From positions 372,001 to 436,000 of the forward strand of contig NZ_VDUY01000004.1 of assembly GCF_008039575.1 (NCBI RefSeq): a DNA stretch of 64,000 nucleotides, given 5' to 3'. Shown piece by piece: positions 22,502 to 41,222 of this stretch. Position 1 is the first letter of the stretch. Each line of letters begins with the position of its first letter. Source of the DNA: Zeimonas arvi. GTDB taxonomy: Bacteria; Pseudomonadota; Gammaproteobacteria; Burkholderiales; Burkholderiaceae_E. A program made the translations under genes and the position numbers. Under the pieces are notes generated by a model. It saw only the letters and a program-made list of their open reading frames with translations, was not told where the DNA came from and searched no databases.

Positions 22502-23149
22502 TCACTGCGCCGCCAGCAGGCCCTTGCGCTCGATGAAGGCGATCACGTCGGCCAGGCCGTCGCGGGTCTTCAGGTTCGTCATCACGAACGGCCGCTCCGG
22601 CCGCATCCTGCGCGTGTCGGATTCCATCACTTCCAGGCTGGCGCCCACGTGCGGGGCCAGGTCGGTCTTGTTGATCACGAAGAGGTCGCTCTTGGTGATG
22701 CCCGGGCCGCCCTTGCGCGGGATCTTCTCGCCGGCGGCCACGTCGATCACGTAGATCGTCAGGTCCGAGAGCTCCGGACTGAAGGTCGCGGCCAGGTTGT
22801 CGCCGCCGGATTCGATGAAGACGATGTCGGCGTCGGGAAAGCGCTCGAGCATCCGGTCGACGGCCTCGAGGTTGATCGATGCGTCCTCGCGGATCGCGGT
22901 GTGCGGACATCCGCCGGTCTCGACACCCATGATCCGCTCGGGCTCCAGCGCGCCGGCAACGGTGAGCAGGCGCTGGTCCTCCTTCGTGTAGATGTCGTTG
23001 GTGATCACGACGAGGTCGTAGCGCTCGCGCATGGTCTTGCAGAGCATCTCGACCAGCGTGGTCTTGCCCGAGCCCACCGGGCCGCCGACGCCCACGCGCA
23101 GGGGCGGCAGCTTGCGGGTGCGACCGGAGATCGAATGCAGGGTGCTCAT
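22502..23149 (-). CDS. ureG: Urease accessory GTPase UreG
   Basis: A 215-residue SIMIBI GTPase that drives nickel delivery to urease with UreD and UreF. P-loop GGPVGSGKT (22-30), the Ni-binding CPH motif at C81-H83, and the downstream [15 protein letters not shown] and [10 protein letters not shown] guanine-recognition stretch. ATG 23149 overlaps the ureF stop (ATGA). There is no His-rich N-terminal extension; the nickel store is on UreE instead. Last gene of the urease cluster. Confidence 0.97.
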
Positions 23150-23853
23150 GATCGGAATAGCCTCGAGTATTGGGTTTCGTGCCGCGCGGAGAGGATCGCG
23201 AGCATCGGGGTGAAGGACTGGCGCCGCGCATCGTCCAGCGTCAGCGCGTGTTCCACGGTGGCGGGAATGGCCGCTGCGAGCCGCGCGAGGATCCGCTGGC
23301 CGGCGGCCTGGCCGAGCGGCACCGCCTTGATCGCCGCCTGCACCATGTTCTCGGCCCAGCCGAACGCGAAGGCAAGCAGCGCCTCGCGCGCCGGCGCGCC
23401 GGCCTGGGCGGCGGCCAGCGCGAAGGCGATCGGGTAGCCGGGCGCGGGGCGCAGCGCGGCCAGCGTGGCCACCCGCTCGTCGGCTTCTCGGTTCCTCAGC
23501 CATTCGAGCATCGAGCGGCCCATCTGCTCGGTCTGCCTGCGCAGCTCGGCCGTCTCGCGCGTCGCCATCAGCCAGTCGTTGAGCGTCGCGATCCGGGCCG
23601 GGTCGTGCCGGTCCCAGGCCGGCACCGCCTGGGCGAGGACGGCCAGCTCCGACAGGCCGGGGACCAGCGCGAGCTGGTCGCAGAGCCAGTCGCCGGTGGA
23701 GGCTTCGTCGGTGATCCGGCCGGCGTCGATCGCCGACTCCAGCCCCTCGGAGTAGCTGAAGCCGCCCACCGGCAGCGCCGGCGAGGCCAGCCAGATCAGC
23801 TGCAGCAGCGTGGCAGGCTGCGCGGCCGGCGGGCGCGGATCCGGCGTCATCAC
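23146..23853 (-). CDS. ureF: Urease accessory protein UreF
   Basis: A 235-residue all-helical accessory protein that bridges UreD and UreG in the urease activation complex. Typical stretches are [24 protein letters not shown] (residues about 16-39, beginning [15 protein letters not shown]) and the C-terminal [22 protein letters not shown], the conserved UreF tail. It overlaps both neighbours by ATGA (ureE stop at 23850; ureG start at 23149). Confidence 0.96.
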
Positions 23854-24428
23854 GCGTGGGCGTGACCGCAGCCGGGACCGTGGACGTGCTCGTGGCCATG
23901 CCGATGCCCGTGCGAGTGCCCGTGGTCGTGCCCGTGTCCCTGCGAGTGCCCGTGCCCGTGCGAATGCCCGCCCTGCGCGGCATAGGCCCCCGATTCGGGT
24001 TCGAAGGGCGCCATCGCCTCGCGCACCGACAGGCCGATCTGCGCGAGCATCTCCGCGAGAACGTGATCGGGCTCGAGCTTCAGGTGGTCCGGCTGCAGCT
24101 CGAGCTGAACGTGGCGGTTGCCCAGGTGGTAGGCCGCCCGCGCGAGGTCGAAGGGCGTGCCGCGCCCCGGCGCGGCCTCCACGATCATCACCGCTTGCGG
24201 CGCGGCCTGCACGCGGATCAGCGACCCGTCTACGGCGACCAGCACGTCGCCGCCTCGCACCGAGCTGCCGCGCGGCAGGAAGACGCCGAGTGCGCGCCCG
24301 GTCGAGTCGATCGCATCGAAGCGGCTCTTCTGGCGGGTGTCCCAGCCGAGCGCCACTTCAGCGGCGCGGGCCAGCAGCGGAGCGGCCAGGCCGGCGCCGC
24401 GGGGGATCAGCTTGTTCACGATCAGCAT
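23850..24428 (-). CDS. ureE: Urease accessory nickel chaperone UreE with His-rich tail
   Basis: A 192-residue nickel metallochaperone. The peptide-binding N-terminal domain (1-75) and metal-binding domain (75-145; [27 protein letters not shown], key part [13 protein letters not shown]) are intact, with the interface histidine in LGNRH. The last 40 residues (encoded by about 23853-23975) are dominated by His-Gly pairs with Ser, Asp, Glu and Cys, a polyhistidine nickel store like that of Klebsiella UreE. Overlaps ureF by ATGA; 30 bases downstream of ureC. Confidence 0.96.
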
Positions 24429-24458
24429 CGGGACGTTCCTGGCCGCGCGGCGGTCCGG

Positions 24459-26186
24459 TCAGAAGAGGAAGTAGCGCTGCGCCATCGGCAGCACGCTGGC
24501 CGGCTCGCAGGTGAGCAACTGCCCGTCGGCGCGCACCTCGTAGGTCTGGGCGTCGATCTGCATGCGCGGCGCGTAGGCGTTGTGGACCATGTCGGCCTTG
24601 CCCACGCTCCGGCAGCCGCGCACCGCCGACACGGTCTTGCGCAATCCGAGCCGATCCGCGACGCCGGATGCGAGCGCGGCGGCGCTGAGGAAGCTCAGCG
24701 AGGTGGCCGCCCGCGCGCCGCCGTAGCTGCCGAACATGGGCCGGTAGTGCACCGGCTGCGGCGTGGGGATCGACGCATTCGGATCGCCCATCGCGGCAGC
24801 GGCGATGAAGCCGCCCTTCAGGATCAGCGAGGGCTTGACGCCGAAGAACGCCGGTCGCCAGAGCACCAGGTCGGCCCACTTGCCGGGCTCGACGCTGCCC
24901 ACCTCGTGGGCGATGCCGTGCGTCAGCGCGGCGTTGATCGACAGCTTCGCCACGTAGCGCTTGACGCGGAAGTTGTCGTTGCGCGGGCCGTCGCCCGGCA
25001 GCGGGCCGCGCTGCTGCTTCATCTTGTGGGCGGTCTGCCAGCATCGCAGGATGACCTCGCCGACACGGCCCATCGCCTGGCTGTCGGAGCTGAAGATGCT
25101 GATCGCGCCCAGGTCGTGCAGGATGTCCTCGGCCGCGATCGTCTCGCGCCGGATCCTGCTCTCGGCGAAGGCCAGGTCCTCGGCGATGCCCGCGTCCAGG
25201 TGATGGCAGACCATCAGCATGTCGAGGTGCTCGTCGATCGTGTTGATCGTGTACGGGCGCGTGGGGTTGGTCGAGCTCGGCAGCACGTTCGGCTCGCCGA
25301 CCACCTTGAGGATGTCGGGCGCGTGGCCGCCGCCCGCGCCCTCGGTGTGGAAGGTGTGGATCGTGCGGCCCTTGAAGGCCGCGATCGTGTCCTCCACGAA
25401 CCCGCTCTCGTTCAGCGTGTCGGTGTGGATCGCCACCTGCACGTCGTGCTCCTCGGCCACACCCAGGCAGCAGTCGATCGCCGAGGGCGTCGTGCCCCAG
25501 TCCTCGTGCAGCTTCAGCCCGATCGCGCCGGCCTCCACCTGCTGGCGCAGGGGATCCGGGCTGCTGGCGTTGCCCTTGCCGAAGAAGCCGAGGTTCATCG
25601 GGAAGGCCTCGGCCGCCATCAGCATCCGCTCGATGTTCGCCGGGCCCGGCGTGCAGGTGGTGGCGAAGGTGCCGGTGGCCGGCCCGGTGCCGCCACCGAG
25701 CATCGTCGTGATGCCGCTCGCCAGCGCTTCCTCGATCTGCTGCGGGCAGATCCAGTGGATGTGCGAGTCGATTCCGCCGGCGGTCACGATCATGCCCTCG
25801 GCGGCGATGATCTCGGTGCCGGGGCCGATCACGATGTCCACGCCCGGTTGCACGTCGGGATTGCCGGCCTTGCCGATCGCGGCGATCCGCGAGCCGCGCA
25901 GGCCGATGTCGGCCTTCACGATGCCCCAGTGGTCGACGATCAGCGCATTGGTGATCACGCAGTCCATCGCGTCCGCCGGCCCGGGGCCGTTGACCCGCTG
26001 GCCCTGGCCCATGCCGTCGCGGATCGTCTTTCCGCCGCCGAACTTCACTTCCTCGCCGTAGCCGCCGGCGCGCAAGGTGTAGTCCTGCTCGACCTCCACG
26101 AAGAGATCGGTGTCCGCAAGGCGGACCCGGTCGCCCACCGTGGGCCCGAACATCTCCGCGTATGCGCGGCGATTCACGCTGCTCAT
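24459..26186 (-). CDS. ureC: Urease alpha subunit UreC
   Basis: The 575-residue catalytic subunit hydrolysing urea to ammonia and carbamate at a di-nickel centre. Nickel ligands and active-site residues are all present: H142 and H144 ([10 protein letters not shown]), carbamylated K225 (GLKLHEDW), H254 ([10 protein letters not shown]), H280 ([12 protein letters not shown]) and catalytic H328 in the flap MVCHHLD. Length is slightly above the usual 567-570 because of a short insertion before residue 140. ATG overlaps the ureB stop (ATGA). Confidence 0.98.
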
Positions 26187-26494
26187 AGCGCCCCCTGGAC
26201 CAGGCCGCGAAAACCCTGCACCACGCGGTTGCCCGCGTAGTCGACCAGCTCGACGGTGCGCTGCTGGCCCGGCTCGAAGCGCACGGCGGTGCCGGAGGCG
26301 ATGTTCAGCCGCATGCCCCGCGCCGCGTTCCGGTCGAATCGCAGCGCCGCATTGGTCTCGGCGAAGTGGTAGTGGGACCCGACCTGGATCGGGCGGTCGC
26401 CCGCGTTCTCCACGACCAGCGTGAGCGTGCGCCGGCCCGGATTGAGCGGAAGGTCGCCGGCCTCGACGATCAGTTCGCCAGGGATGATCGCCAT
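26183..26494 (-). CDS. ureB: Urease beta subunit UreB
   Basis: A 103-residue structural beta subunit. It begins [18 protein letters not shown] and contains [18 protein letters not shown] and [19 protein letters not shown], both diagnostic. Separate from ureA, as in most proteobacteria other than Helicobacter. It follows the 73-residue membrane ORF by 4 bases and overlaps ureC by ATGA. Confidence 0.97.
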
Positions 26495-26498
26495 GGGA

Positions 26499-26720
26499 TC
26501 AGCGGCGCCGAAGCAGGCGCGCGACGCCGGCGACGATGCCCACGGCGGCCGCGCAGAGCAGGGCCAGCGCCAGCAGCGGGTCCAGGTGGGCCACGCCGTG
26601 GGCGATCTCCTGGAAGACGCCGTGGTGCGCCCCGCCGTCGGCGCCGGTGTGGGTGTGCGCGGCGGTGCTCGCGGCGAGCGCCAGGGCCGCCGTGGCGGCG
26701 CGAGAGGTGATCCTGATCAT
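26499..26720 (-). CDS. Small membrane protein between ureA and ureB (HupE/UreJ-like N-terminus)
   Basis: 73 residues from the ATG at 26720, preceded by GGAG. Signal-like start ([20 protein letters not shown]), then GADGGAHHG, which resembles the first periplasmic stretch of HupE/UreJ nickel permeases, then one membrane helix ([19 protein letters not shown]) and an RRR end. HupE/UreJ proteins are about 190-200 residues, so this is either a degenerate remnant or a distinct mini-protein. The four histidines before the helix could bind nickel. The reading frame is intact and spaced 4 bases from ureB, which argues for translation. Confidence 0.7.
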
Positions 26721-26785
26721 CGGTCGGCTCTCCATTGAAAGGGGGGTAGGCGAGGCTTCGCTGGGCGCCCCGCCCTGGTGCAGTG

Positions 26786-27088
26786 TCATGCGATGGGCTG
26801 GTGCACGGTCACCAGCTTGGTGCCGTCGGGAAAGGTGGCCTCGACCTGGATTTCGGGAATCATCTCGGCAACGCCGGGCATCACGTCGGCGCGCGTGAGC
26901 ACCTCCTTGCCTTCGCTCATCAGCTGGGCCACGGTCTTGCCGTCACGGGCGCCTTCCATGATCGTCGCGCTGATCAGCGCGACGGCCTCGGGATGATTCA
27001 GCTTGATTCCCCGCGCCTTGCGCCGCTCGGCGACCAGGGAGGCGGTGAAGATCAGCAGCTTGTCCTTCTCGCGGGGCGTGAGTTCCAT
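26786..27088 (-). CDS. ureA: Urease gamma subunit UreA
   Basis: A 100-residue structural gamma subunit. It starts at the ATG at 27088 ([20 protein letters not shown]), the canonical UreA opening; the open frame upstream has no ribosome site. [10 protein letters not shown]-type (here [16 protein letters not shown]) and [14 protein letters not shown] are intact. Separated from ureD by 117 bases in which I see no other feature. Confidence 0.97.
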
Positions 27089-27205
27089 CGGTTCCTCGGC
27101 CGCTGCGCGGCGCTTGGCGGGCGGGCGCGTCCGGTGCGCGGCCCTCGGCGGAGGTGTTGCAAGATCCGGGCCCGTCGGCGTCCGGGCAGGCGGCACGGGT
27201 CCGGT

Positions 27206-28105
27206 TCAGGTTCGCCAGACGCGCGGCGAGGCCGGCTCCGATGCCCAGAGCAGGTGCCGCCAGTCGTCGCGGACGGCCTGCAGGGTCGGCCAGAGCGCCT
27301 CGACACGATCGGCGAGCGCGCGCACGACGACGACGCGCGGATGCGGGGCGGTCGCGCCGCAGCGCCCGGGGTCCGGAGCCGCCTGCAGGCGCTCGCGCGC
27401 CGCGGCGAGCAGCGCCTCGGCAAGCGGGGCCGGCCAGTCGCTGCCGCCGGCGCACCAGAGCGTGAAGAGCGCGGACTGCCCGTCCCAGCCCAGCGGGCTG
27501 CGCAGCAGCAGCTCGCCGAGCCGGTCGCCCGGGTCCACGATGCCGCGCTCGAGCCAGGCCCCGGGCAGCGCCAGGTCTTGCTCGAACCTGCCCTGCGTGA
27601 AGCGCTCGCCGGAGGCCGGCAGGCCGAGCGCGAGAATGTCCCATCCGATCATCTGCGCGCCTGCCGCGAGCTCGAAGCGCATCCGGTTCACCGCGATCGC
27701 GCCGCGGTAGGCGATCGTCTCCAGCGGCAGCCATTCGAGACGCCCCCCGGCCGCCACCCGCGCGCGCAGCTCCTGCGCCGCGAGCCCGCCCGCGCTCCGG
27801 TAGAAGCGGGTCGCGCCGGGCGTGGTGACCAGCGCGTGGGCGTTCTCGCCGACGTCGATGTCGATCTCGAGCCGGTCGCCGCCCACGATGCCGCCGGGCG
27901 GGTGCACCAGCACGTGGTGGCAGGTGCCCGGCCCCTCGGGGTAAAGCCGCTTGAGCACGCGCAGCGGGCCGTCGTGGCGATCGACGCCGATCGTGCGTTC
28001 GCCGTCGCGCCGGTAGCGCAGCGCCAGCCTGCCGCGCCACCCCGGCTCCCCGGCCGGCATGCCGGCCGCAGGCGGAGCATCGCGGAGATCGCGCGGCGCG
28101 TTCAC
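27206..28105 (-). CDS. ureD: Urease accessory protein UreD (UreH)
   Basis: A 299-residue scaffold that binds apo-urease and forms the nickel-delivery tunnel with UreF/UreG. Diagnostic stretches: GDGPLRVLKRLYPEG-like (here HDGPLRVLKRLYPEG), HPPGGIVGGDRLEI, TTPGATRFYRS and PLETIAYRGA. A GTG at 28105 overlaps the response-regulator stop (GTGA), so I take it as the start; the ATG at 28060 (MPAGEPGW) is the alternative. The overlap ties urease expression to the two-component genes. Confidence 0.94.
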   Translation of the reverse strand: MNAPRDLRDAPPAAGMPAGEPGWRGRLALRYRRDGERTIGVDRHDGPLRVLKRLYPEGPGTCHHVLVHPPGGIVGGDRLEIDIDVGENAHALVTTPGATRFYRSAGGLAAQELRARVAAGGRLEWLPLETIAYRGAIAVNRMRFELAAGAQMIGWDILALGLPASGERFTQGRFEQDLALPGAWLERGIVDPGDRLGELLLRSPLGWDGQSALFTLWCAGGSDWPAPLAEALLAAARERLQAAPDPGRCGATAPHPRVVVVRALADRVEALWPTLQAVRDDWRHLLWASEPASPRVWRT

Positions 28106-28998
28106 CGCAGCGCCCTCGATGCCAGAGCCGCCGCGGCTGCCCGGGTCTCCACGCCCAGCTTCTCGAACACGTGCTCGAGGTGCTTGTTCACCGTGCGCGG
28201 GCTCATTCCGAGGATCTCGGCGATGTCGCGATTGGTCTTTCCCTTGGCCACCCAGGACAGCACCTCGGTCTCGCGCGGCGTGAGCGCGGCATCGTCGAGC
28301 CGCGCGCCGGCCGCTTCCTCGCGCCGCTGCAGCAGCAGCATGGTTTCGTCCAGGCCGGCCCGCCCCAGGCTCTTGGCCACCAGGCGATGGCCGTCGGCAC
28401 CGTCCGCAGCGGCCTCTTCGCCGGGCGCGAGCGCCAGGACCTGCGCGATCCACCCGGCCGGCGGCCGCGGATCGTCGCTGCCGAACCGGTCGCGCAGCCA
28501 GGCCTCCGCCTGCGGCGATCGCCAGGCGATCCGGCCGCGCGCATCGAGCAGCAGCACGCCGATGCCGCCCACGTCCACGGCGTCGCGCGCCATCCTTGCC
28601 ACCCGCGCATTGCGCGCGTGCGTGGCCAGCCTGGCGAGGACCTCCTCGGCGCGCACCGGCTTCACCACGTAGTCGACGCCGCCGCTGTCGAAGCCGCGCA
28701 CGATCGAGTCGGTCTCCGAGAGCCCGGTCATGAAGATCACCGGCACGTGCGACCAGGCCGGGTTCGCCTTGATCCGGCGACAGGTCTCGAATCCGCTCAG
28801 GCCCGGCATCACCGCGTCGAGCAGGACCGCGTCGGGAACCGCGTACTCGAGGCGCTCGAGCGCCTCCTCGCCGCTGCGCGCGACCAGGACCGAATAGCGT
28901 TCGGCCTCGAGCAGGTCGCAGAGCCAGCGCAGCGTCTCGGGGGCGTCGTCGACGACGAGCACGGTGCCGTGCGGCGGGCTGGCGGTTTCAACTGTCAT
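28102..28998 (-). CDS. Response regulator, receiver + PAS-like + LuxR-type HTH
   Basis: 298 residues from the ATG at 28998, overlapping the sensor-kinase stop by 11 bases. Receiver domain 1-125: acidic pair D17/D18, phospho-acceptor D61 (VLLDAVMPG), Thr and Lys switch residues (MTGLS, VVKPV). Middle (about 130-225) resembles a PAS domain (GIGVLLLDARGRIAW). C-terminal LuxR/FixJ-type helix-turn-helix about 236-295: LTPRETEVLSWVAKGKTNRD and SPRTVNKHLEHVFEKLGV. Presumably phosphorylated by the adjacent hybrid kinase and controlling ure and urt genes; that is inferred from overlap and position. Confidence 0.95.
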   Translation of the reverse strand: MTVETASPPHGTVLVVDDAPETLRWLCDLLEAERYSVLVARSGEEALERLEYAVPDAVLLDAVMPGLSGFETCRRIKANPAWSHVPVIFMTGLSETDSIVRGFDSGGVDYVVKPVRAEEVLARLATHARNARVARMARDAVDVGGIGVLLLDARGRIAWRSPQAEAWLRDRFGSDDPRPPAGWIAQVLALAPGEEAAADGADGHRLVAKSLGRAGLDETMLLLQRREEAAGARLDDAALTPRETEVLSWVAKGKTNRDIAEILGMSPRTVNKHLEHVFEKLGVETRAAAAALASRALR

Positions 28999-31900
28999 CG
29001 GATGCCCTGAGTTGTTGCTGGAGGGTGTCGAAGTCGAAGGCATCGACCAGGCGCGACCACTGCGCGCACAGCGGGGCCAGGTCGGGGTGCTCGCGCGCCA
29101 GGGCGTCGAGGCGCTCGCGCAGCGCGCGCGGCCTGCCGGCCAGCGCCAGTCGGCGAAGCTCCGCGAGCGCCTCGACCGGCACGCCGAAGGCAGCGACGTC
29201 CAGCGTCGCGGGCGGCGCCTCCAGCGGCTCCACGGTCAGGTCGGTGATCCACTCGATCTCCAGGTGACGACCGAGCGCGTCGAGCAGCTCGGACTCGATC
29301 ACCGGCTTGGCGACGAAGGCCTGCGCCTGGGCGTTCGCGAGGTTCTCCGGGCGGTTCTCGAAGAGGTCGGCCGAGACCATGACGATCGGCAGGTCGGTGA
29401 AGCCGGACTCGCGCACCATGCGGGCGGCCTGCCATCCGTCCAGGTCGTCCATGCTCACGTCGAGCAGGATCGCATCGGGGCGGACCTCCCGCACGCTCTC
29501 CAGGCATTCGCGCGCGCTGGCCGCCTCCCGGATCGCGAAGCCCAGCGGCGCCAGGAGTCCGGCGATCATCTGGCGCTGGATCGGCTGGTCGTCGACCACC
29601 AGCAGCGTGCGGCGAGGGCCCGCGTAGCCGGAGATCGGCCGATGGCGCGGCGGACTCGGCAGCGACGCGAGGCCGGCCGCGCTCAGCTCGCGCAGGTAAA
29701 GCCGGACCGAGAAGGTGCTGCCCGCGCCGGGCGTGCTGCGAACGGCGAGCTCGCCGCCCATCAGTTCGGTGAGCAGGCCGGTGATCGTGAGCCCGAGCCC
29801 GGTGCCGAGCTCGCTCGAGCGGCGTCCGGCGCTGCCGCGCTCGAAGGGCAGGAAGATCCGCTCGAGGTCCTGGGGTGCGATGCCGATCCCGGTGTCGATG
29901 ACCTCGAACACGATCACCGCGCGCCGGGCGTCCACGCGCAGCGTCACGCCGCCGCTCCGCGTGTAGCGCACCGCGTTGCCGAGCAGGTTGATCAGGATCT
30001 GGCGCAGCCGCTTGGCGTCGGCCTGCACGTAGGTCGGAACCCGCCCGGCGGTCTCGAAGGAGAAGGCGAGGCCCTTGGCGCGCGCCTGGGGCTGCACCAT
30101 GCGGACCAGGTCGTCGAGCAGCTCGCGAAGCGGCACCGGCGCGCTGTCCAGCCGCAGGCGGCCCGCCTCGATCCGGGCCAGGTCGAGCAGGCCGTCGACC
30201 AGCGCGTGCAGGTGCTCGCCGCTGCGCTGGATGGTGACCACGGCGTCGCGCGCCGTTCCGGCGAGCTGGTTGCCCTTGAGCAGGATCTGCGCGTAGCCCA
30301 GGATGCTGTTGAGCGGCGTGCGCAGTTCGTGCGTGATGCCGGTCACGTAGCGCGTCTTCGCCCGGCTCGCCGATTCCGCCAGGTCCTTGGCCGCCTGCAG
30401 CGCCGCATCGGTGCGCCGGTGCGCGTCGACCTCGCGGGTGAGCAGCTGGGTTTGGCGCGTCGACTCGTCTTCCGCCATCCGGCGGCTTTCGCCGGCGAGC
30501 ACCACCCACCACGAGCAGACCGCCGCCACGAGGACCAGCAGCGCGTAGGCCTTCACGAAAGGCATGCGCAGCGCGATCGTCCCGGAGGCCAGCGTTTCCT
30601 GGTAGTAGACGATGCCCAGCACCGCGGCGAGCATCGCGCTGAGCGAGGCGAGCACGACCAGGAAGTAACCGATCCGGCCATTGACCCGGCGCGTCAGCCG
30701 CCCCGGCAGCACCGCGGCGACCGCGTCGGCAGCCTGCTCGGAGGCGCGCGATCGCGACTTGCAGCAGTCGCGGCAGCGCGACTCCAGCGTGCAGCACAGC
30801 GAGCAGATCGGCGCGCCGTAGGCCGGGCAGCCGGCGATGTCCTCGGATTCGAATTCGTTCTCGCACACCGAGCAGCGCACGATCTGGCCGGGCTTCCAGG
30901 CCGTCGGCGGTCGTCGCGCGAGGTAGTAGCGGCCGCGAGTCAGCCAGGCGATCAATGGGGCGCTGGCCAGCGACGCGCCCAGCGCGATGAAGGGCGAGAA
31001 GGCCTCGGCGCCGGGGCCCAGCACGCCACTGTAGGCCACGATCGCCAGCGCTGCGGCCAGCAGCATCGAGCCGAGCCCGACCGGGTTCAGGTCGTACAGG
31101 TGGGCCCGCTTGAACTCGATGTGGCGGGGGCTCAGCCCGAGCGGCTTGTTGATGACCAGGTCGGCCACCAGCGCGCCGACCCAGGCGATCGCGAGGTTGG
31201 CGTAGAGGCCCAGCACGCGCTCGAGGGCGCCGAAGACGTCGAGCGTCATCAGCAGCAGCGCGATCGTCACGTTGAACACCAGCCAGACCACGCGACCCGG
31301 GTGGCTGTGCGTGAGCCGCGCGAAGAAGTTCGACCAGGCCAGCGATCCGGCATAGGCGTTGGTCACGTTGATCTTGACCTGCGAGACGATCACGAAGACC
31401 ACGGTCGCCGCGACCGCCCAGGCGGAGCCGCCGAACACCTGCTGGAAGCCCGCCAGGTACATCTCGGTGGGCTGGATCGCCTTCTCCGCGGCAACGCCCT
31501 GCCCGAGGGCGAGGAAGGCCAGGAAGGCGCCGGCCAGCATCTTCAGCATGCCCGGCACCACCCACCCCGGACCGGCCACGATGACCGCCGTCCACCAGCG
31601 CCAGCGGTTGCCGGCGTTGCGCTCGGGCAGGAAGCGCAGGTAGTCGACCTGCTCGCCGATCTGCACGACCAGCGCGATCGCGACGGTGGCCGCCGCCCCG
31701 AACATCAGCGGATCGAAGCCGCTGCTGCCGGAGACGCTTCCGGACAGGCCGGACAGCGACGTCAGGGCCTGGGGATTCCGGAAGGCGATGAACAGGAAGG
31801 GCAGGGCGAGGAGCGCCAGCCAGACCGGCTGCGTGCAGGCCTGCAGGCGCGAGATCAGCGTGATCCCGTGCGTGACCAGCGGAATCACGACGACGGCCGA

Positions 31901-32368
31901 GATCGCGTAGCACCACACCAGCGGCAGGTCGACCACCATCTGCAGCGCCAGCGCCATGATCGCGGCTTCGAGCGCGAAGAAGATGAAGGTGAAGCCGGCG
32001 TACACCAGCGAGGTGATCGTCGAGCCCAGGTAGCCGAAGCCCGCGCCGCGAGTCAGCAGGTCCATGTCCACGCCGTGCCGGGCGGCGTAGACGCTGATCG
32101 GCAGTCCGGTCAGGAAGGTGACCAGGCCCACCGCCAGGATCGCCCACAGCGCGTTCGCGAACCCGTAGTTCAGCGCGATCGTTCCGCCGATCGCCTCGAG
32201 CGCCAGGAAGGACACCGCGCCGAAGGCCGTGTTGGCCACCCGGAACTCCGACCACTTGCGGAAGCTGCGCGGCGTGTAGCGCAGGGCGTAGTCCTCGAGC
32301 GTCTCGTTGGCCACCCAGGCGTTGTAGTCGCGCCGGATGCGAAGGATTTTCTGCGGAGCGGAGGACAA
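28988..32368 (-). CDS. NCS1-transporter-like / Cys-rich / histidine kinase / receiver fusion sensor
   Basis: 1126 residues. Residues about 35-490 form a 12-helix permease-like domain resembling NCS1 (cytosine/purine/allantoin) transporters (YNAWVANETLEDYALRYTPR, DLLTRGAGFGYLGSTI). A cysteine module follows: C499, C502, C514, C522, C525, C526, C532, C535, C536, probably zinc or Fe-S. Two further helices (about 565-590, 605-630), a coiled coil, then HisKA with THELRTPL (H680) and HATPase_c (DTGIGIA, GTGLGLT), then a receiver with D970. Start is TTG at 32368: an in-frame stop lies two codons upstream and no Met occurs for more than 100 residues. Likely senses urea or a related nitrogen compound, as CbrA does with its SLC5 domain; ligand unproven. 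Overlaps the response-regulator gene. Confidence 0.93.
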   Translation of the reverse strand: MSSAPQKILRIRRDYNAWVANETLEDYALRYTPRSFRKWSEFRVANTAFGAVSFLALEAIGGTIALNYGFANALWAILAVGLVTFLTGLPISVYAARHGVDMDLLTRGAGFGYLGSTITSLVYAGFTFIFFALEAAIMALALQMVVDLPLVWCYAISAVVVIPLVTHGITLISRLQACTQPVWLALLALPFLFIAFRNPQALTSLSGLSGSVSGSSGFDPLMFGAAATVAIALVVQIGEQVDYLRFLPERNAGNRWRWWTAVIVAGPGWVVPGMLKMLAGAFLAFLALGQGVAAEKAIQPTEMYLAGFQQVFGGSAWAVAATVVFVIVSQVKINVTNAYAGSLAWSNFFARLTHSHPGRVVWLVFNVTIALLLMTLDVFGALERVLGLYANLAIAWVGALVADLVINKPLGLSPRHIEFKRAHLYDLNPVGLGSMLLAAALAIVAYSGVLGPGAEAFSPFIALGASLASAPLIAWLTRGRYYLARRPPTAWKPGQIVRCSVCENEFESEDIAGCPAYGAPICSLCCTLESRCRDCCKSRSRASEQAADAVAAVLPGRLTRRVNGRIGYFLVVLASLSAMLAAVLGIVYYQETLASGTIALRMPFVKAYALLVLVAAVCSWWVVLAGESRRMAEDESTRQTQLLTREVDAHRRTDAALQAAKDLAESASRAKTRYVTGITHELRTPLNSILGYAQILLKGNQLAGTARDAVVTIQRSGEHLHALVDGLLDLARIEAGRLRLDSAPVPLRELLDDLVRMVQPQARAKGLAFSFETAGRVPTYVQADAKRLRQILINLLGNAVRYTRSGGVTLRVDARRAVIVFEVIDTGIGIAPQDLERIFLPFERGSAGRRSSELGTGLGLTITGLLTELMGGELAVRSTPGAGSTFSVRLYLRELSAAGLASLPSPPRHRPISGYAGPRRTLLVVDDQPIQRQMIAGLLAPLGFAIREAASARECLESVREVRPDAILLDVSMDDLDGWQAARMVRESGFTDLPIVMVSADLFENRPENLANAQAQAFVAKPVIESELLDALGRHLEIEWITDLTVEPLEAPPATLDVAAFGVPVEALAELRRLALAGRPRALRERLDALAREHPDLAPLCAQWSRLVDAFDFDTLQQQLRASDDS

Positions 32369-32429
32369 GCGTCACCTGGCGCGGATGGGTTCCTCTCGAT
32401 TGAACGCAAGAACCGCGCCATGACCTCGC

Positions 32430-32447
32430 ATACGTCGATCGACGTAT
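32430..32447 (+). promoter_or_regulatory. 18-bp perfect palindrome between the sensor kinase and urtA (candidate operator)
   Basis: ATACGTCGATCGACGTAT reads identically on both strands. It lies in the 185-bp divergent region, 62 bases from the kinase start and 106 from urtA. Length and symmetry suit a dimeric LuxR/FixJ-type regulator, and such a gene is in the same cluster. Binding is inferred. Confidence 0.6.
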
Positions 32448-32456
32448 TTCCCGTTC

Positions 32457-32470
32457 GTGCTGCAGAGCAC
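32457..32470 (+). promoter_or_regulatory. Short inverted repeat GTGCT-N4-AGCAC upstream of urtA
   Basis: Perfect 5-bp arms around GCAG, ten bases from the larger palindrome. It loosely resembles half of an NtrC-type enhancer site but does not match the full pattern. Could equally be chance. Confidence 0.3.
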
Positions 32471-32553
32471 AAAGTCGCTTCCTGCACGCACGCCAGCCTC
32501 GACGCACCGCGACGTGTCCCGGAATCCCCCTTTCTTGTGCAAGGAGCCTCGAA

Positions 32554-33834
32554 ATGTCGCACGACCACGACGAAAACGCCTCCAGACCGGGCATCCCGGC
32601 CCTCTCCGACGTCACCCGGCGCCGCCTGCTGCAGGGCCTCGGCGCGATTCCGCTGGCCGGCGTGCCGGGCCTCGCGTTCGCCCAGCAGTTCCCGACCGCC
32701 AAGGTGATGACCACGGGCAAGGCGGTCACCGACACCGAGGTGGTCGTCGGCCAGCTTCACTCCTCCTCCGGAACGATGGCGATCTCCGAGACCGGCGCCA
32801 TCCAGGCCGAGCAGCTGGCGATCGACCAGATCAACGCGATGGGCGGCGTTCTCGGCCGCAAGATCAAGGTGATCAAGGAAGACGGCGCTTCCGACTGGCC
32901 CACCTTCGCCGAGAAGTCCCGCAAGCTGATCCTCAACGACAAGGTGGCCTGCGTGTTCGGATGCTGGACCTCGGCCTCGCGCAAGGCGGTGCTGCCGATC
33001 TTCGAGAAGGAGAACAACCTCCTCTACTACCCGACCTTCTACGAAGGCCTCGAGCAGTCGAAGAACGTCATCTACACCGGCCAGGAAGCCACCCAGCAGA
33101 TCCTCTGGGGTCTGGACTGGGCCAAGGACGAGAAGAAGGCCAAGACCTTCTTCCTGGTCGGCTCGGACTACATCTGGCCGCGCACCTCGATGAAGATCGC
33201 GCGCAAGCACATCGAGAACTTCCAGAAGGGCAAGGTCGTCGGCGAGGAGTACTACGCGCTGGGCAGCACCAACTTCCAGTCGCTGATCAACAAGATCAAG
33301 ATCGCCAAGCCGGACTGCATCTTCGCGGCGGTGGTCGGCGGCTCGAACGTCGCCTTCTACAAGCAACTCAAGGCCGCCGGCATCACCGGGGCCAAGCAGT
33401 TCCTGCTGACGCTGTCGGTCACCGAGGACGAGATGCTGGGCGTGGGCGGCGAGAACTTCGCCGGCTTCTTCTCGTCGATGAAGTACTTCCAGACGCTCGA
33501 GAACGACAACAACAAGAAGTTCGTCGAGGCCTTCAAGGCGGCCTACGGTCCGAAGTCGGTGATCGGCGACGTCACGCAGGCCGGCTACCTGGGCCCCTGG
33601 CTCTGGAAGGCCGCGGTCGAGCGGGCGGGCAGTTTCGACGTCGACGCGGTGGTCAAGGCCTCGCCCGGCATCGAGCTCAAGACCGCGCCCGAAGGCTACG
33701 TGAAGGTCCACGAGAACCACCACCTGTGGAGCAAGGCGCGGATCGCCGAGGGCATGCCCGACGGCACCTTCAAGGTCGTGGCCGAGTCCAAGGACCTGAT
33801 CGAGCCCAACCCCTTCCCGAAGGGCTACCAGTAA
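32554..33834 (+). CDS. urtA: Urea ABC transporter substrate-binding protein UrtA
   Basis: A 426-residue periplasmic binding protein of the branched-chain amino acid/amide type. The N-terminus carries a twin-arginine-like signal (TRRRLLQGLGAIPLAGVPGL, cleavage after AFA near residue 43). The mature part has VGQLHSSSGTMAISE, FGCWTSASRKAVLP and YYPTFYEGLEQS, characteristic of UrtA rather than LivJ/FmdD. AAGGAG ribosome site before ATG 32554. First gene of urtABCDE, divergent from the transporter-like sensor. Confidence 0.96.
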   Translation: MSHDHDENASRPGIPALSDVTRRRLLQGLGAIPLAGVPGLAFAQQFPTAKVMTTGKAVTDTEVVVGQLHSSSGTMAISETGAIQAEQLAIDQINAMGGVLGRKIKVIKEDGASDWPTFAEKSRKLILNDKVACVFGCWTSASRKAVLPIFEKENNLLYYPTFYEGLEQSKNVIYTGQEATQQILWGLDWAKDEKKAKTFFLVGSDYIWPRTSMKIARKHIENFQKGKVVGEEYYALGSTNFQSLINKIKIAKPDCIFAAVVGGSNVAFYKQLKAAGITGAKQFLLTLSVTEDEMLGVGGENFAGFFSSMKYFQTLENDNNKKFVEAFKAAYGPKSVIGDVTQAGYLGPWLWKAAVERAGSFDVDAVVKASPGIELKTAPEGYVKVHENHHLWSKARIAEGMPDGTFKVVAESKDLIEPNPFPKGYQ

Positions 33835-33930
33835 GCGCGGCATCGCCGGGGCCGCCGAGGCCCCGGCGGCGACCCTGGCCGCGCGCGTCGCGTCCAGGGG
33901 TCTTCCCGATCGGTGCGCAAGGAGCCGGAG

Positions 33931-34845
33931 ATGAGTTTCAACGACATCCTCAACATCACCCTGATGCAGGGTTTCGCGGGCCTGAGCCTGTTCTCGGTCC
34001 TGCTGCTGATGGGCCTCGGGCTGGCGGTGATCTTCGGCCAGATGGGCGTCATCAACATGGCGCACGGCGAGTTCATGACGATCGGGGCCTACACGGTCTT
34101 CCTCGGATCGACGCTGACCGAGACCTTCGCCCCCGGGCTGATGCAGGCCTACTTCCCGCTTGCCATCGTGGCCGCCTTCCTGTTCGCCTTCATCGCCGGC
34201 TGGCTCACCGAGTGGGCGCTGATCCGGCACCTCTACAAGCGCCCGCTGGACACGCTGCTCGCCACGTGGGGCCTGAGCCTGGCGATCCAGCAGGTCTTTC
34301 GCACCTTCGTGGGCCCCAAGGAAGTCAGCCCCACGCTGCCCGACTGGCTGATGGGCTCCTGGGCGCCGGTCGAGGGCCTGGACATCCCGATCAACGGCAT
34401 GTTCGTGATGGCGCTGACCCTGCTGGTCACCGGCGGCCTGCTGTTCGCGATGTACCGGTCGCGCTGGGGCCTGCGCGTGCGGGCCACGGTCGCCAACCGG
34501 TCGATGGCCAACGCCACCGGCATCAACACCCGGATGACCGACCGGATGACCTTCGCCATCGGCTGCGGGATCGCCGGCGTGGCGGGCGCGGCCTTCACCA
34601 CGATCGGCTCGACCGGGCCGACCAGCGGTTCGCTGTACATCGTCGACGCCTTCCTGGTTGTCACCTTCGGCGGCGCGGCGAGCCTGCTCGGCACGGTGGC
34701 CTCGGCCTTCGGCATCGCCCAGACGCAGTCGATCTCGGAGTTCTTCCTGACCGGCTCGATGGCCAAGGTGCTCACGCTGATGCTGGTCGTGACCATCCTG
34801 ATGATCCGCCCGCAGGGCCTGTTCGCGGCCAAGGTGCGCCGCTGA
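33931..34845 (+). CDS. urtB: Urea ABC transporter permease UrtB
   Basis: A 304-residue LivH-type inner-membrane permease with about eight hydrophobic segments. It has GQMGVINMAHGEFMTIGAYT (about 38-57) and GLRVRATVANRSMANATGIN, both characteristic of UrtB. The ATG at 33931 is chosen because AAGGAG at 33918-33923 sits at the right distance; an in-frame GTG at 33913 precedes that site and is unlikely. The 96-base gap after urtA holds a GC-rich stretch, perhaps a partial transcript attenuator. Confidence 0.96.
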   Translation: MSFNDILNITLMQGFAGLSLFSVLLLMGLGLAVIFGQMGVINMAHGEFMTIGAYTVFLGSTLTETFAPGLMQAYFPLAIVAAFLFAFIAGWLTEWALIRHLYKRPLDTLLATWGLSLAIQQVFRTFVGPKEVSPTLPDWLMGSWAPVEGLDIPINGMFVMALTLLVTGGLLFAMYRSRWGLRVRATVANRSMANATGINTRMTDRMTFAIGCGIAGVAGAAFTTIGSTGPTSGSLYIVDAFLVVTFGGAASLLGTVASAFGIAQTQSISEFFLTGSMAKVLTLMLVVTILMIRPQGLFAAKVRR

Positions 34846-34867
34846 ACCGGCCGCGAGGAGAAGCACG

Positions 34868-36100
34868 ATGAATGCGCTCAAATCACTCCTGATGCGTCCC
34901 AGCACCGGCAGCATCCTGGTCCTGGCGGCGATCCTGCTGGTGGTGTTCCCGCTGACGCTGGACATCTTCCGGCTGAACCTGGTCGGCAAGTACCTGACCT
35001 ACGGCTTCGTGGCGATCGGCCTGGTGATGCTCTGGGGGCACGCCGGCATCCTGAGCCTCGGCCAGGGCGTCTTCTTCGGGCTGGGCGGCTACATGATGGC
35101 CATGTTCCTCAAGCTCGAGGCCTCCGACCCCGAGAGCACGAAGATCCAGTCCACGCCGGGCATTCCCGACTTCATGGACTGGAACCAGCTGACCGAGCTG
35201 CCCCTCTGGTGGGAGCCGTTCAGGTCGCTGCCCTTCGCGCTGGCGGCGGTGATCCTGGTGCCGGCGATCCTCGCCTTCGTCATCGGCTTCGCGATGTTCA
35301 AGCGGCGGGTCGGCGGGGTCTACTTCGCGATCATCACGCAGGCCGTGGCCCTGATCCTCACGGTGCTGATCATCGGCCAGCAGGGCTACACCGGCGGCGT
35401 GAACGGCATGACTGACCTGAAGACGATGCTGGGCTGGGACATCCGCGAGGACGGCTCCAAGCTGATCCTGTACTACGTGTGCGCCGGCCTGCTGCTCGCC
35501 AGCATCCTGGCCTGCCGCTGGATCCAGTCGAGCAAGCTCGGCACGCTGCTGCTGGCGATGCGCGACAAGGAAGACCGGGTGCGATTCTCGGGCTACGACG
35601 TGGCGATGTTCAAGGTCTTCGCCTTCGTGCTCGCGGCGATCCTGGCCGCGATCGGCGGCGCGATGTTCACGCTGCAGGTCGGCTTCATGTCGCCGTCCTT
35701 CGTCGGGATCGTGCCCTCGATCGAGATGGTGATCTTCGCCGCGGTCGGCGGGCGGATGAGCCTGGTCGGCGCGGTCTACGGCGCGCTGCTGGTGAACTTC
35801 GGCAAGACCTACTTCTCGGAGAGCTTCCCCGATCTGTGGCTCTTCCTGATGGCCGCGCTGTTCATCGGCGTGACCATGGCCTTCCCCAACGGCCTCGCGG
35901 GCCTGGTCGAGAGCCACCTGAAGCCCTGGTGGCGGCGGCGCCGGGCGCAGCGCGCCGAGCAGGCCGAGCGCCTGGCCGCCGCCCAGGCCTCGTGGCCGGA
36001 CCAGCCCGAGTCGCGCGTGCCCGCCGCGAGCGCGCCGGCTTCCGCAGCCGGGGCGGCCGGACCGAAGCTGCCCGGCGGCATCAGCGGCCAGCGCGCCTGA
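34868..36100 (+). CDS. urtC: Urea ABC transporter permease UrtC
   Basis: A 410-residue LivM-type permease: about ten hydrophobic segments between residues 12 and 345, with WGHAGILSLGQGVFFGLGGY (about 57-76), YTGGVNGMTDL and RDKEDRVRFSGYDV. The C-terminal 55 residues are a charged and Ala/Pro-rich cytosolic tail (RRRRAQRAEQAERLAAAQAS), longer than usual and of no known role. CGAGGAGAA before the ATG. Confidence 0.96.
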   Translation: MNALKSLLMRPSTGSILVLAAILLVVFPLTLDIFRLNLVGKYLTYGFVAIGLVMLWGHAGILSLGQGVFFGLGGYMMAMFLKLEASDPESTKIQSTPGIPDFMDWNQLTELPLWWEPFRSLPFALAAVILVPAILAFVIGFAMFKRRVGGVYFAIITQAVALILTVLIIGQQGYTGGVNGMTDLKTMLGWDIREDGSKLILYYVCAGLLLASILACRWIQSSKLGTLLLAMRDKEDRVRFSGYDVAMFKVFAFVLAAILAAIGGAMFTLQVGFMSPSFVGIVPSIEMVIFAAVGGRMSLVGAVYGALLVNFGKTYFSESFPDLWLFLMAALFIGVTMAFPNGLAGLVESHLKPWWRRRRAQRAEQAERLAAAQASWPDQPESRVPAASAPASAAGAAGPKLPGGISGQRA

Positions 36101-36124
36101 TTCCCGCATCGACCGGAGTAGGAC

Positions 36125-36868
36125 ATGAGCCAGAAAGAGTTCGCGCTGTACATCGAGGACCTCACGGTCTCGTTCGACGGCTTCAAGGCGATCGACAGCC
36201 TGAACCTGTACATCGACAAGGACGAGCTGCGGGTGATCATCGGACCGAACGGCGCCGGCAAGACCACGCTGCTCGACCTGATCTGCGGCAAGACGCGCGC
36301 GAGCGCCGGAAGCATCCGGTTCAAGGACGAGGAGCTCACGAAGAAGCCCGAGCACGAGATCGTCAGGTCCGGGGTGGGGCGCAAGTTCCAGACGCCCTCG
36401 ATCTACGAGAACCTCAGCGTGTTCCAGAACCTCGAGGTCTCGTTCCCGAAGGGCCGCTCGGTCTTCGGCGCGCTGTCCTTCGAGCGCACCGAAGAGGTCC
36501 TCGAGCGGGTCCGCAAGGTCGCCGAGGAGATCGGCCTGGCGGACAAGCTCGAGACCGAGGCGGGGCTGCTGTCGCACGGCCAGAAGCAGTGGCTCGAGAT
36601 CGGGATGCTGCTGATGCAGGAGCCCGAGCTTCTGATGCTCGACGAGCCGATCGCGGGCATGAGCGCGCGCGAGCGCGAGCTGACCGCCGACCTGCTCAAG
36701 CGGATCTGCCGCAACCGCTCGATGATCGTGATCGAGCACGACATGGACTTCGTCAAGCAGATCGCCTCGAAGGTCACCGTCATGCACCAGGGAAAGATCC
36801 TCGCCGAAGGGCCGATGGACGTGGTGCAGGCCGATCCCAAGGTGATCGACGTCTACCTGGGTCACTGA
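36125..36868 (+). CDS. urtD: Urea ABC transporter ATP-binding protein UrtD
   Basis: A 247-residue LivG-type ATPase. Walker A GPNGAGKTT (40-48), Q-loop KFQTPSIYENLSV, signature LSHGQKQWLEIG in place of LSGGQ (normal for UrtD), Walker B LLMLDEPIAGMS and switch His in IVIEHDMDFV. Works as a heterodimer with UrtE on the UrtBC permease. Preceded by GGAGTA; 24 bases from urtC. Confidence 0.96.
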   Translation: MSQKEFALYIEDLTVSFDGFKAIDSLNLYIDKDELRVIIGPNGAGKTTLLDLICGKTRASAGSIRFKDEELTKKPEHEIVRSGVGRKFQTPSIYENLSVFQNLEVSFPKGRSVFGALSFERTEEVLERVRKVAEEIGLADKLETEAGLLSHGQKQWLEIGMLLMQEPELLMLDEPIAGMSARERELTADLLKRICRNRSMIVIEHDMDFVKQIASKVTVMHQGKILAEGPMDVVQADPKVIDVYLGH

Positions 36869-36895
36869 CCCGCCGAACCCGCAACGGAGCCAGCC

Positions 36896-37585
36896 ATGCT
36901 CGAAGTCAAGGACCTGTTCGTCGCCTACGGGCAAAGCGAGGCGCTGCACGGCATCTCGTTCGACGCCGCCCACAACGAGACGGTGGCCATCATGGGGCGC
37001 AACGGCATGGGCAAGACCACGCTGTTCAAGAGCCTGATGGGGGTGCTGCCGTTGAAGGCCGGGAGCATCAGGGTCGCGGGGAGCGACGTGTCGCGGGACG
37101 AGAGCTTTCGCCGCGTCGCCAAGGGGATCGCCTACGTGCCGCAGGGTCGGATGATCTTCCCGACGCTCACCGTCGAGGAGAACATCCAGACCGGGCTGGA
37201 GAACAGCCGCAGCAAGCGGATTCCCGACGAGATCTACGCGCTCTTCCCGGTGCTCTTCGAGATGCGCCGGCGCAAGGGCGGGAACCTGTCGGGCGGCCAG
37301 CAGCAGCAGCTGGCGATCGCGCGGGCGCTGGTGACCGACCCCAAGGTCCTGCTGCTCGACGAGCCCACCGAGGGCATCCAGCCTTCGATCATCAAGGACA
37401 TCGCCAAGGCGCTCAACGAGATCCGCAAGATGCGCCGGATCACGATCGTCGTGTCGGAGCAGATCCTGTCCTTCGCGATGGACGTGGCCGACCGGCTGTT
37501 CGTCATCGAGGGCGGGCGGCTGGTCCACGAAACCACGCGCGCCGAGACCGACGAGGCGCGCATCAAGCAGTACCTGTCGGTCTGA
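36896..37585 (+). CDS. urtE: Urea ABC transporter ATP-binding protein UrtE
   Basis: A 229-residue LivF-type ATPase: Walker A GRNGMGKTT (34-42), signature LSGGQQQQLAIARAL, Walker B VLLLDEPTEGIQPS, switch stretch VVSEQILSF (Gln instead of the usual switch His, common in UrtE/LivF). Energises urea uptake with UrtD. 27 bases downstream of urtD; GGAGC ribosome site. Confidence 0.96.
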   Translation: MLEVKDLFVAYGQSEALHGISFDAAHNETVAIMGRNGMGKTTLFKSLMGVLPLKAGSIRVAGSDVSRDESFRRVAKGIAYVPQGRMIFPTLTVEENIQTGLENSRSKRIPDEIYALFPVLFEMRRRKGGNLSGGQQQQLAIARALVTDPKVLLLDEPTEGIQPSIIKDIAKALNEIRKMRRITIVVSEQILSFAMDVADRLFVIEGGRLVHETTRAETDEARIKQYLSV

Positions 37586-37626: not shown

Positions 37627-38856
37627 ATGCCCGACACCCTGATCAAGGTCGACCTCGCCCAGTCGCCGTACGAGAACGAGAACATCCACAACCGCTGGCA
37701 CCCGGACATCCCGATGGCCTGCTGGGTCAATCCCGGCGACGACTTCGTGCTGGAGACCTACGACTGGACCGGCGGCTACATCAAGAACAACGACAGCGCC
37801 GACGACGTGCGCGACGTCGACCTGAGCACCGTGCACTTCCTGTCCGGGCCGGTGGGCGTGAAGGGCGCCGAGCCCGGCGACCTGCTGGTGGTGGACCTGC
37901 TCGACATCGGCGCCAAGCCCGACAGCCTGTGGGGCTTCAACGGCTTCTTCTCGAAGAAGAACGGCGGCGGCTTCCTGACCGAGCACTTCCCGCTCGCGCA
38001 GAAGTCGATCTGGGACTTCAACGGGATGTTCACGAAGAGCCGGCACATCCCGGGCGTGGAGTTCGCGGGCCTGATCCATCCGGGCCTGATCGGCTGCCTG
38101 CCCGACCGTAAGATGCTCGACACGTGGAACGAGCGCGAGGTCGACTTCATCGCGACCCAGCCCGACCGGGTGCCGCCGCTGGCCAACCCGCCGTTCGCGA
38201 AGACCGCCCACATGGGCAAGATGAAGGGCGACGCCGCGGCGAAGGCCGCCGCCGAGGGCGCCCGCACCGTGCCGCCGCGCGAGCACGGCGGCAACTGCGA
38301 CATCAAGGACCTGTCGCGCGGCTCGAAGGTCTTCTTCCCGGTCTACGTGGACGGCGCCGGCCTGTCGGTGGGCGACCTGCACTTCAGCCAGGGCGACGGC
38401 GAGATCACCTTCTGCGGCGCGATCGAGATGGCCGGCTGGGTGCACATGCGCGTGTCGCTGATCAAGGGCGGCATGGCGAAGTACGGGATCAGGAACCCGA
38501 TCTTCAAGCCGAGCCCGATCACGCCGAACTACAAGGACTACCTGATCTTCGAAGGCATCTCGGTCGACGAGCAGGGCAGGCAGCACTACCTGGACGTGCA
38601 CGTCGCGTACCGGCAAGCCTGCCTGAACGCGATCGAGTACCTGAAGAAGTTCGGCTACTCGGGCGCGCAGGCCTACTCGATCCTGGGCACCGCGCCGGTG
38701 CAGGGCCACATCAGCGGCGTGGTGGACATCCCGAACGCCTGCGCCACGCTCTGGCTGCCCACCGAGATCTTCGAGTTCGACATCAATCCCGGCGCGAACG
38801 GGCCGGTGAAGATGATCTCGGGCGCGGTCGACATGCCGATCTCGCCGGATCTCTGA
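37627..38856 (+). CDS. fmdA: Formamidase FmdA (acetamidase/formamidase family)
   Basis: A 409-residue cytosolic amidase releasing ammonia from formamide and possibly other short amides; a metal-dependent family distinct from nitrilase-type amidases. Hallmarks: NRWHPDIPMACWVNPGDDF near residue 22, GVEFAGLIHPGLIGCLP near 140, EHGGNCDIKDLSRGSKVFFP near 220 and GDLHFSQGDGEI near 250. Full length. A GGAGG site precedes ATG 37627. It sits directly behind urtE, consistent with amide uptake by the Urt system or co-regulation with urea use. Confidence 0.95.
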   Translation: MPDTLIKVDLAQSPYENENIHNRWHPDIPMACWVNPGDDFVLETYDWTGGYIKNNDSADDVRDVDLSTVHFLSGPVGVKGAEPGDLLVVDLLDIGAKPDSLWGFNGFFSKKNGGGFLTEHFPLAQKSIWDFNGMFTKSRHIPGVEFAGLIHPGLIGCLPDRKMLDTWNEREVDFIATQPDRVPPLANPPFAKTAHMGKMKGDAAAKAAAEGARTVPPREHGGNCDIKDLSRGSKVFFPVYVDGAGLSVGDLHFSQGDGEITFCGAIEMAGWVHMRVSLIKGGMAKYGIRNPIFKPSPITPNYKDYLIFEGISVDEQGRQHYLDVHVAYRQACLNAIEYLKKFGYSGAQAYSILGTAPVQGHISGVVDIPNACATLWLPTEIFEFDINPGANGPVKMISGAVDMPISPDL

Positions 38857-38868: not shown

Positions 38869-39231
38869 ATGCCGACCTACGACTACGAGTGTCCGGCCTG
38901 CGGCGGCTTCGACGCCTTCCGCAGCATCGCCGAACGCAACGAGCCGGCCGGGTGCCCGAGCTGCGGAACGGCCTCGGCGCGGGTGCTGAGCGCGCCGAGG
39001 CTGTCCGCGCTGGCCACGGGAGCCCGCCGGGCGATCGAGGCCAACGAGCGCTCGGCGAACGCGCCGATGTCTTCGCGGGAGTACGCCGACAGCCGCTCGG
39101 GCAGCTATGGCCGCCTGCGGCACCCGGCCGGCTGCGGCTGCTGCAGCACCGGCATCCGCAGCGCCACGGTGCGCGGCGCCTCGGGCGCCAAGGCCTTCCC
39201 GACCAAGCGGCCCTGGATGATCAGCCACTGA
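38869..39231 (+). CDS. fmdB: FmdB-type zinc-ribbon protein
   Basis: A 120-residue protein with the FmdB/CxxC_CXXC_SSSS zinc ribbon: [17 protein letters not shown] (C8, C11) and GCPSCG (C29, C32). A second Cys cluster, GCGCCSTG near residue 88, is not part of the ribbon. Historically proposed as a regulator of formamidase in Methylophilus, but its biochemical role is not settled. 12 bases after fmdA, so co-transcribed. Confidence 0.92.
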
Positions 39232-41218: not shown

Positions 41219-41222
41219 GCCG

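Follow-up and report, generated by a model that had tools for sequence, protein, structure and literature searches.

Introduction

Transporter folds that have been turned into receptors of histidine kinases are known from the SLC5 and Amt kinases. CbrA combines L-histidine transport with signalling (PMC7096432), whereas CrbS is a hybrid kinase whose LuxR-family regulator CrbR requires an inverted repeat (PMC5715377); in CbrA/CbrB and CrbS/CrbR alike, the transporter domain is joined via a linker to the histidine kinase. In Ks-Amt5, ammonium binding is coupled to a kinase, which sets a precedent for ligand binding without translocation (PMC5764959). Members of the NCS1 family carry nucleobases, hydantoin, allantoin or metformin, and the use of Na+ is not universal among them, MetT being an exception (PMC13390362). 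Among genes for the use of urea and amides, the fmd cluster of Methylophilus methylotrophus is induced by formamide and urea (PMC10781810), and an amide transporter has been proposed for the second urt cluster of Bradyrhizobium japonicum, which comes with formamidase and AmiE (PMC3098086). The parts of these two papers drawn on here link no kinase to either cluster. A genome table of Dechloromonas aromatica gives a histidine kinase of 1131 aa, a CheY-like protein of 308 aa and UrtA in succession (PMC2907700). A description of an NCS1-kinase fusion was not found in the literature searched, most subscription papers lying outside it, and a term search of a preprint on the CbrA structure gave no mention of NCS1 (PMC13022988).

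Here, we describe such a fusion in Zeimonas arvi, encoded within a 64,000-nucleotide stretch of contig NZ_VDUY01000004.1 (positions 372,001 to 436,000), referred to as the window. A preliminary description of this DNA had proposed an NCS1-type transporter joined to a cysteine-rich module, a kinase and a receiver. We favour, with moderate confidence, the reading that the protein is a receptor kinase derived from an NCS1-fold transporter, which responds to urea or a short-chain amide and acts via the adjacent LuxR-type regulator.

Results and Discussion

Architecture of the fusion kinase and its locus

The preliminary description gave the interval 28988-32368 without a strand; on the minus strand it contains a single open reading frame of 1126 aa, in which an NCS1-like domain, a Cys module, HisKA, HATPase and a receiver follow one another (Table 1). 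The frame starts with TTG one codon past an in-frame TGA, and the homologue at locus L001 has its start at the same position. The three signalling domains were all recognized by Pfam with E ≤ 1.1e-17, and the phosphoacceptors H680 (within HELRTP) and D970 are present exactly at the residues given in the preliminary description, so that the window protein has the full equipment of a hybrid histidine kinase. The opposite strand is likewise open over 28988-32368 (1127 codons); such frames are common at 70% GC, and this one was dismissed as a shadow frame that could misguide gene callers.

The longest open reading frame of the regulator overlaps the 3′ end of the kinase gene and is the next gene on the same strand, whereas urtA-E, fmdA, fmdB and amiE are divergent from the kinase. 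The amidase gene is followed by genes for a CbbQ/NorQ-type AAA protein and a VWA protein (39302-42911), as also noted for loci L215 and L216, and this trio is intact where amiE sits away from the cluster (genomes G246 and G207). The AAA and VWA proteins are a possible amidase activase. The target genes are of the same kind as those of M. methylotrophus and B. japonicum. Gene order is the same and sizes are similar in D. aromatica, where the protein is listed only as a "histidine kinase"; judged by analogy with the table entry, that locus is perhaps orthologous.

Table 1: Features of the fusion kinase locus in the window.
Feature	Position	Strand	Basis
Urease genes ureD-A-B-C-E-F-G, 3′ of the regulator gene	22502..28078	-	UreD and UreC by Pfam; the others named from translations
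LuxR-type response regulator: receiver, about 110 residues, LuxR/GerE HTH	28102..29043	-	PF00072, PF00196
Receiver domain, residues 923-1032, D970	29273..29602	-	PF00072, E 5.7e-20
HATPase_c, residues 784-892	29693..30019	-	PF02518, E 1e-26
HisKA dimerisation/phosphoacceptor domain, residues 671-736, H680	30161..30358	-	PF00512, E 1.1e-17
TM hairpin and beginning of signalling helix, residues 564-640	30449..30679	-	Model helices 564-595 and 598-659
Cys module, residues 496-540, C-x2-C-x11-C-x7-C-x2-C-C-x5-C-x3-C	30749..30883	-	Alignment; eight invariant Cys
NCS1-fold permease-like domain, residues 1-490	30899..32368	-	Profile and fold match; invariant E58, E134, Q236, E239, Q240, D242, K332, N334, N337
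Candidate operator, perfect 18-bp palindrome ATACGTCGATCGACGTAT between kinase gene and urtA	32430..32447		Pattern TACGT-N6-ACGTA
urtABCDE, urea/amide-type ABC transporter	32554..37585	+	Five NCBIfam equivalog/exception models over cut-off
fmdA, acetamidase/formamidase	37627..38856	+	PF03069, E 8.5e-183
fmdB-type zinc-ribbon protein	38869..39231	+	TIGR02605, NF053663
amiE, aliphatic amidase	39302..40342	+	NF009802, 715.8 bits (cut-off 427)

The membrane domain belongs to the NCS1 lineage

A search of the N-terminal part against PF02133, as suggested in the preliminary description, would have missed the lineage, as neither the window protein nor the fusion of locus L143 matched this profile in a Pfam scan at E up to 10. 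Simple PF02133 membership thus fails as a basis for the assignment, and profile-profile and fold comparisons were used instead. By hhalign, the whole TM domain aligned with the NCS1 profile over 414 columns with E 3e-16, whereas five shuffled sequences gave E 0.04-0.57 against the same profile and the SSS (SLC5) profile yielded E 0.027 with a probability of 1.8. In the fold ranking CodB and Mhp1 came out on top, 4 to 9 Z units over the best other row. The suspected resemblance to NCS1 rather than SLC5 is clearly supported by these data, and the structure model together with the Mhp1/CodB match is consistent with the "about 12" permease-like helices counted before. An SLC5 fold was rejected on the hhalign comparison; SSF and Amt rows were both absent from the Pfam scans of the window protein and L143 (E up to 10). 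When the family profile was run against the sequences of solved structures, no transporter appeared, and the two rows obtained (E 1.4 and 5.7) covered the Cys block only. A phmmer search with the stand-alone relative L157 returned a single, unrelated match. We regard the architecture and the NCS1 lineage of the fusion kinase as settled.

The domain is like CodB, Mhp1 and MetT (PF02133) in fold and profile; it differs in K332, in the TM6 part of the pocket, in the fusion to Cys module and kinase and in being invisible to PF02133. The transporter part of the SLC5-STAC kinases CbrA and CrbS is SLC5 and their target genes are others; moreover, the eight-Cys module and TM hairpin stand here where those kinases carry STAC, and the general Pfam scan lists no STAC. 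By analogy, the fusion kinase would work like CbrA and CrbS, yet it represents a separate lineage. With Ks-Amt5 it shares the use of a nitrogen-compound transporter fold as kinase receptor, the domain there being Amt/Rh.

A putative ligand pocket

The domain was aligned with Mhp1, CodB, twelve relatives, five stand-alone proteins and eight PF02133 proteins. The Mhp1 pocket comprises A38, W117, Q121, W220, N314 and N318 (PMC13390362). In the window protein, E134 corresponds to Mhp1 Q121, F130 to W117, K332 to S312, I333 to T313, and the TM8 residues N334 and N337 to N314 and N318, as mapped by alignments at ~20% identity in which TM6 may be off by several residues, one of them having a gap there. 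The nine residues of the membrane domain named in Table 1 are identical in 134/134 rows, that is, in the window and 133 of 135 relatives. The five stand-alone relatives likewise have a glutamate at the E134 place and carry an arginine at that of K332; a glutamate at the former is also found in L101, a PF02133 protein. The TM3 tryptophan of NCS1 (Mhp1 W117) is replaced by Phe or Leu in the kinase family; for the TM6 Trp, the alignment shows an aliphatic residue. We take A38, I41, A309, S312 and T313 to be the Na2 site of Mhp1, with S312 and T313 as side-chain ligands; these two are not kept in the kinase. The basic residue at the sodium position (Lys332) suggests that the membrane domain may be Na+-independent.

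The eight-cysteine module

All nine cysteines reported between C499 and C536 were located (499, 502, 514, 522, 525, 526, 532, 535 and 536), though only eight of them are invariant in the 134 rows, window included; C535 varies, and we therefore refer to the conserved unit as the eight-cysteine module. Searching 249 genomes with a profile of the module, with up to 25 candidates scored per genome so that weak copies elsewhere may escape, gave 36 matches below 1e-16, all in frames of 894-1247 codons at kinase-family places, and five more that were short and weak (E 0.002-0.007). Modelled alone, the module reached a pLDDT of 77.9, and the top rows of a fold search were RING, FYVE, Rab-effector and ribosomal zinc domains, all weak and none significant. 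The module is specific to the kinase family, its similarity to RING/FYVE-like domains being weak. If both ends of the permease part are inside, as in NCS1, the module would face the reducing cytoplasm, where zinc is more plausible than disulfides; the module probably holds zinc.

Distribution and gene linkage

Among 398 genomes of Pseudomonadota, the fusion was present in 52, that of the window included, out of 56 with any match; the other four yielded no more than a fragment or remote stand-alone proteins, and as up to three candidates were scored per genome, further copies may exist. An unbiased sample of 55 of the 57 fusion places was examined in stretches of mostly 19.5 kb, omitting the window and G224, which is cut by a contig end. 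Genes for urt, urease or fmdA were found near the kinase in 54 of these 55 loci, the exception being L131, whose contig ends just past the gene start. The commonest partner was an amide-type urt cluster (UrtA at least 60% identical to that of the window) with FmdA and often AmiE (35/55), followed by urease genes (13/55, six of these with a less similar urt), a less similar urt alone (4/55; UrtA 37-39%) and FmdA without urt (2/55). A LuxR-type regulator was adjacent and co-oriented in 53 of the 55. Consistent with the preliminary description, nitrogen genes recur beside the homologues, and neither of the two outcomes it had named as speaking against its proposal, an N-terminus closest to SLC5 or homologues without nitrogen linkage, was observed.

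The proposed setting of urea uptake and urease stood in part: urt recurs, but adjoining urease is not conserved, and amide-type urt-fmdA predominates as given above. In a set of closest relatives, biased as it comprises the best 80 of 448, UrtA was encoded in 79, the remaining locus starting at a contig end; in the same set a whole urease cluster adjoined the regulator in L001 alone, four Pseudomonas loci contained ureE-F-G, and in two Methyloversatilis loci a UreG-like match (45%) was located at the distal end. Since amide-type urt and formamidase are the commonest partners, urea or short-chain amides appear to fit better as ligands than the urea or allantoin considered before.

A tree was built from the window kinase and those of 54 sampled loci (55 members in all, L131 omitted), with one outgroup on a very long branch. 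The six kinase copies divergent from ureA formed one clade (100/100), and in three of the six the genome also carries an amide-type copy. The eleven copies located by canonical urt or urt-ure require four changes on the tree, at least three of them via well supported branches. These placements indicate that the kinase switched partner clusters more than once. The urease-linked copies directly divergent from ureA (L112, L115, L136, L139, L140 and L145) have longer frames, of 1216-1365 codons, and in four of the six the match is interrupted before the Cys module.

The NCS1-Cys-TM unit was also found on a receiver-less kinase beside FmdA and AmiS/UreI in two loci (L143:8002-10656 and L155:8166-10847), and judged from these sequences, the sensor unit is portable between kinases. 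The nearest stand-alone relative found, L157, is followed by genes whose products are a carbon-nitrogen hydrolase, a binding protein of the AmiC type and an AmiR-like antiterminator with AmiR_N and ANTAR domains (L157:8949-13984), and it is a candidate amide or nitrile permease. Both settings point to small amides.

A candidate operator upstream of urtA

The pattern TACGT-N6-ACGTA was derived from 10-mers common to the intergenic regions between kinase gene and urtA. Perfect copies were detected in 91 of 113 such regions (window included, UrtA ≥ 60%) compared to 0 of 2260 mononucleotide shuffles, the 113 regions being related to one another so that the 91 are not independent cases. Allowing Y/R half-sites, the 700 bp preceding the kinase gene contained the palindrome in 107 of 135 relatives, compared to 0.11% of shuffles and none of 135 control stretches inside the kinase gene. 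Across the 64 kb of the window, the copy at 32430-32447 has no second match even when one mismatch is tolerated (0.03 matches expected), and it is the sole perfect one in the 3.83 Mb genome, in which a reversed control pattern has two.

With the same half-sites and a limit of 350 bp, the palindrome was present upstream of urtA in 107/114 loci, of fmdA in 17/104 (among twelve listed, all Pseudomonas or Stutzerimonas save two) and of amiE in 5/34. It was found before none of urtB (111), urtC (111), urtD (117), urtE (107), fmdB (42), cbbQ (4), the regulator (128), ureA (13) and ureC (13). In G246, where amiE lies 3.3 kb past fmdB, a perfect palindrome precedes it by 66 bp, and in G207 one is located 74 bp before an amiE on a separate contig; three of the five set-apart amiE genes (G379, G196 and G360), situated on other contigs, have none. 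Fifteen genomes contained 22 sites, namely 16 in kinase clusters, the two before amiE of G246 and G207 and four elsewhere, and as the reversed control had 52 sites in the same genomes, the evidence lies in the position of the palindrome and not in its number.

A perfect palindrome was found upstream of the kinase in none of the six urease-divergent copies, in neither of the two with the other kinase and in one of the eleven canonical urt or urt-ure copies, three more of which reached 9 of 10 positions. A single palindrome serving all kinase copies is not supported by these counts, and the palindrome thus qualifies as a good candidate operator of the amide-type systems only. In one genome, the interval from kinase to urtA contains two perfect copies (G170:C1:3467261 and 3467445, within L113). 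Concerning promoters, a strict sigma-54 pattern was present in 3 of the 113 intergenic regions, which is unconvincing, and a scan of 32300-32620 gave no sigma-70 site.

Proposed mechanism and alternative explanations

In the mechanism that we infer, urea or a short-chain amide such as formamide or acetamide would bind in the membrane pocket. Via the cytoplasmic, probably zinc-holding eight-Cys module and the TM hairpin, a change of the permease fold would then reach the coiled helix of the kinase and alter autophosphorylation of H680. The phosphate would then reach the adjacent LuxR-type regulator, with D970 perhaps acting as an intramolecular sink or tuner, and the regulator would bind the TACGT-N6-ACGTA palindrome and turn on urtABCDE-fmdAB-amiE. 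In other lineages it would activate urt-ure or urease operons via as yet hypothetical sites. The adjacent regulator is likely to control the urea/amide genes; that urea or a short-chain amide is the ligand is somewhat less certain though still rather probable, and the chances that the domain is a receptor rather than a transporter are about even. The proposal as a whole is supported, among other evidence, by the partner changes on the tree, through which the kinase stays, and by the invariant pocket residues.

An NCS1 domain that imports amide or urea and reports flux or occupancy to the kinase, in the manner of CbrA, is a somewhat unlikely alternative. Movement of substrate may persist, as the glutamate of E134 and the basic character of position 332 recur in the five stand-alone permease-like relatives; however, both presumed Na2 side-chain ligands of Mhp1 are lost to K332 and I333, and many loci carry neighbouring genes for a five-subunit ABC transporter of urea-like substrates, which would make uptake through the kinase superfluous. 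The precedents likewise point both ways, with CbrA transporting L-histidine (PMC7096432) and Ks-Amt5 binding without translocation (PMC5764959). It seems more doubtful still that the domain senses another signal, such as nitrogen status, a nucleobase, ammonium or cyanate, with the urea/amide genes as mere targets. The range of known NCS1 substrates (PMC13390362) would allow this, and linkage alone could show the regulon rather than the ligand; nevertheless, the Phe or Leu in place of the TM3 Trp and the aliphatic TM6 place argue against nucleobase stacking, and the amidase-like cluster around L157 argues for amides.

The least probable explanation, to which we give little credence, is that the Cys module is the true sensor, of redox state, zinc or nickel for urease, and that the permease-like part serves as an anchor only. 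The invariance of the eight cysteines and the confinement of strong matches to the kinase family would agree with such a role, but residues of the membrane domain are equally invariant, the weak similarities are to structural two-zinc folds, and the module would lie on the reducing side of the membrane. Furthermore, the 35 amide-type loci contain no urease in the fetched stretch, and nickel is therefore unlikely as the common signal.

Conclusion

Returning to the receptor kinase that we favour, its presence in 52 of 398 genomes of Pseudomonadota would make it an independent case of a transporter fold becoming a receptor. More tentatively, it may constitute a third class of transporter-fold receptor kinases beside SLC5 and Amt, namely an NCS1 receptor for short-chain amides as well as urea that would neither transport its ligand nor need Na+. 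In such a receptor, K332 would fill the former sodium site and pair with an invariant acidic pocket residue, the zinc module would take the role of STAC, and the unit would have moved between two kinases and been re-linked several times. New here is the 18-bp palindrome before urtA, and in some relatives before fmdA or amiE; it offers a ready reporter, and L157 a stand-alone protein for comparison. The adjacent LuxR-type protein represents a candidate regulator for the use of urea, formamide and acetamide, which may be relevant to soil nitrogen.
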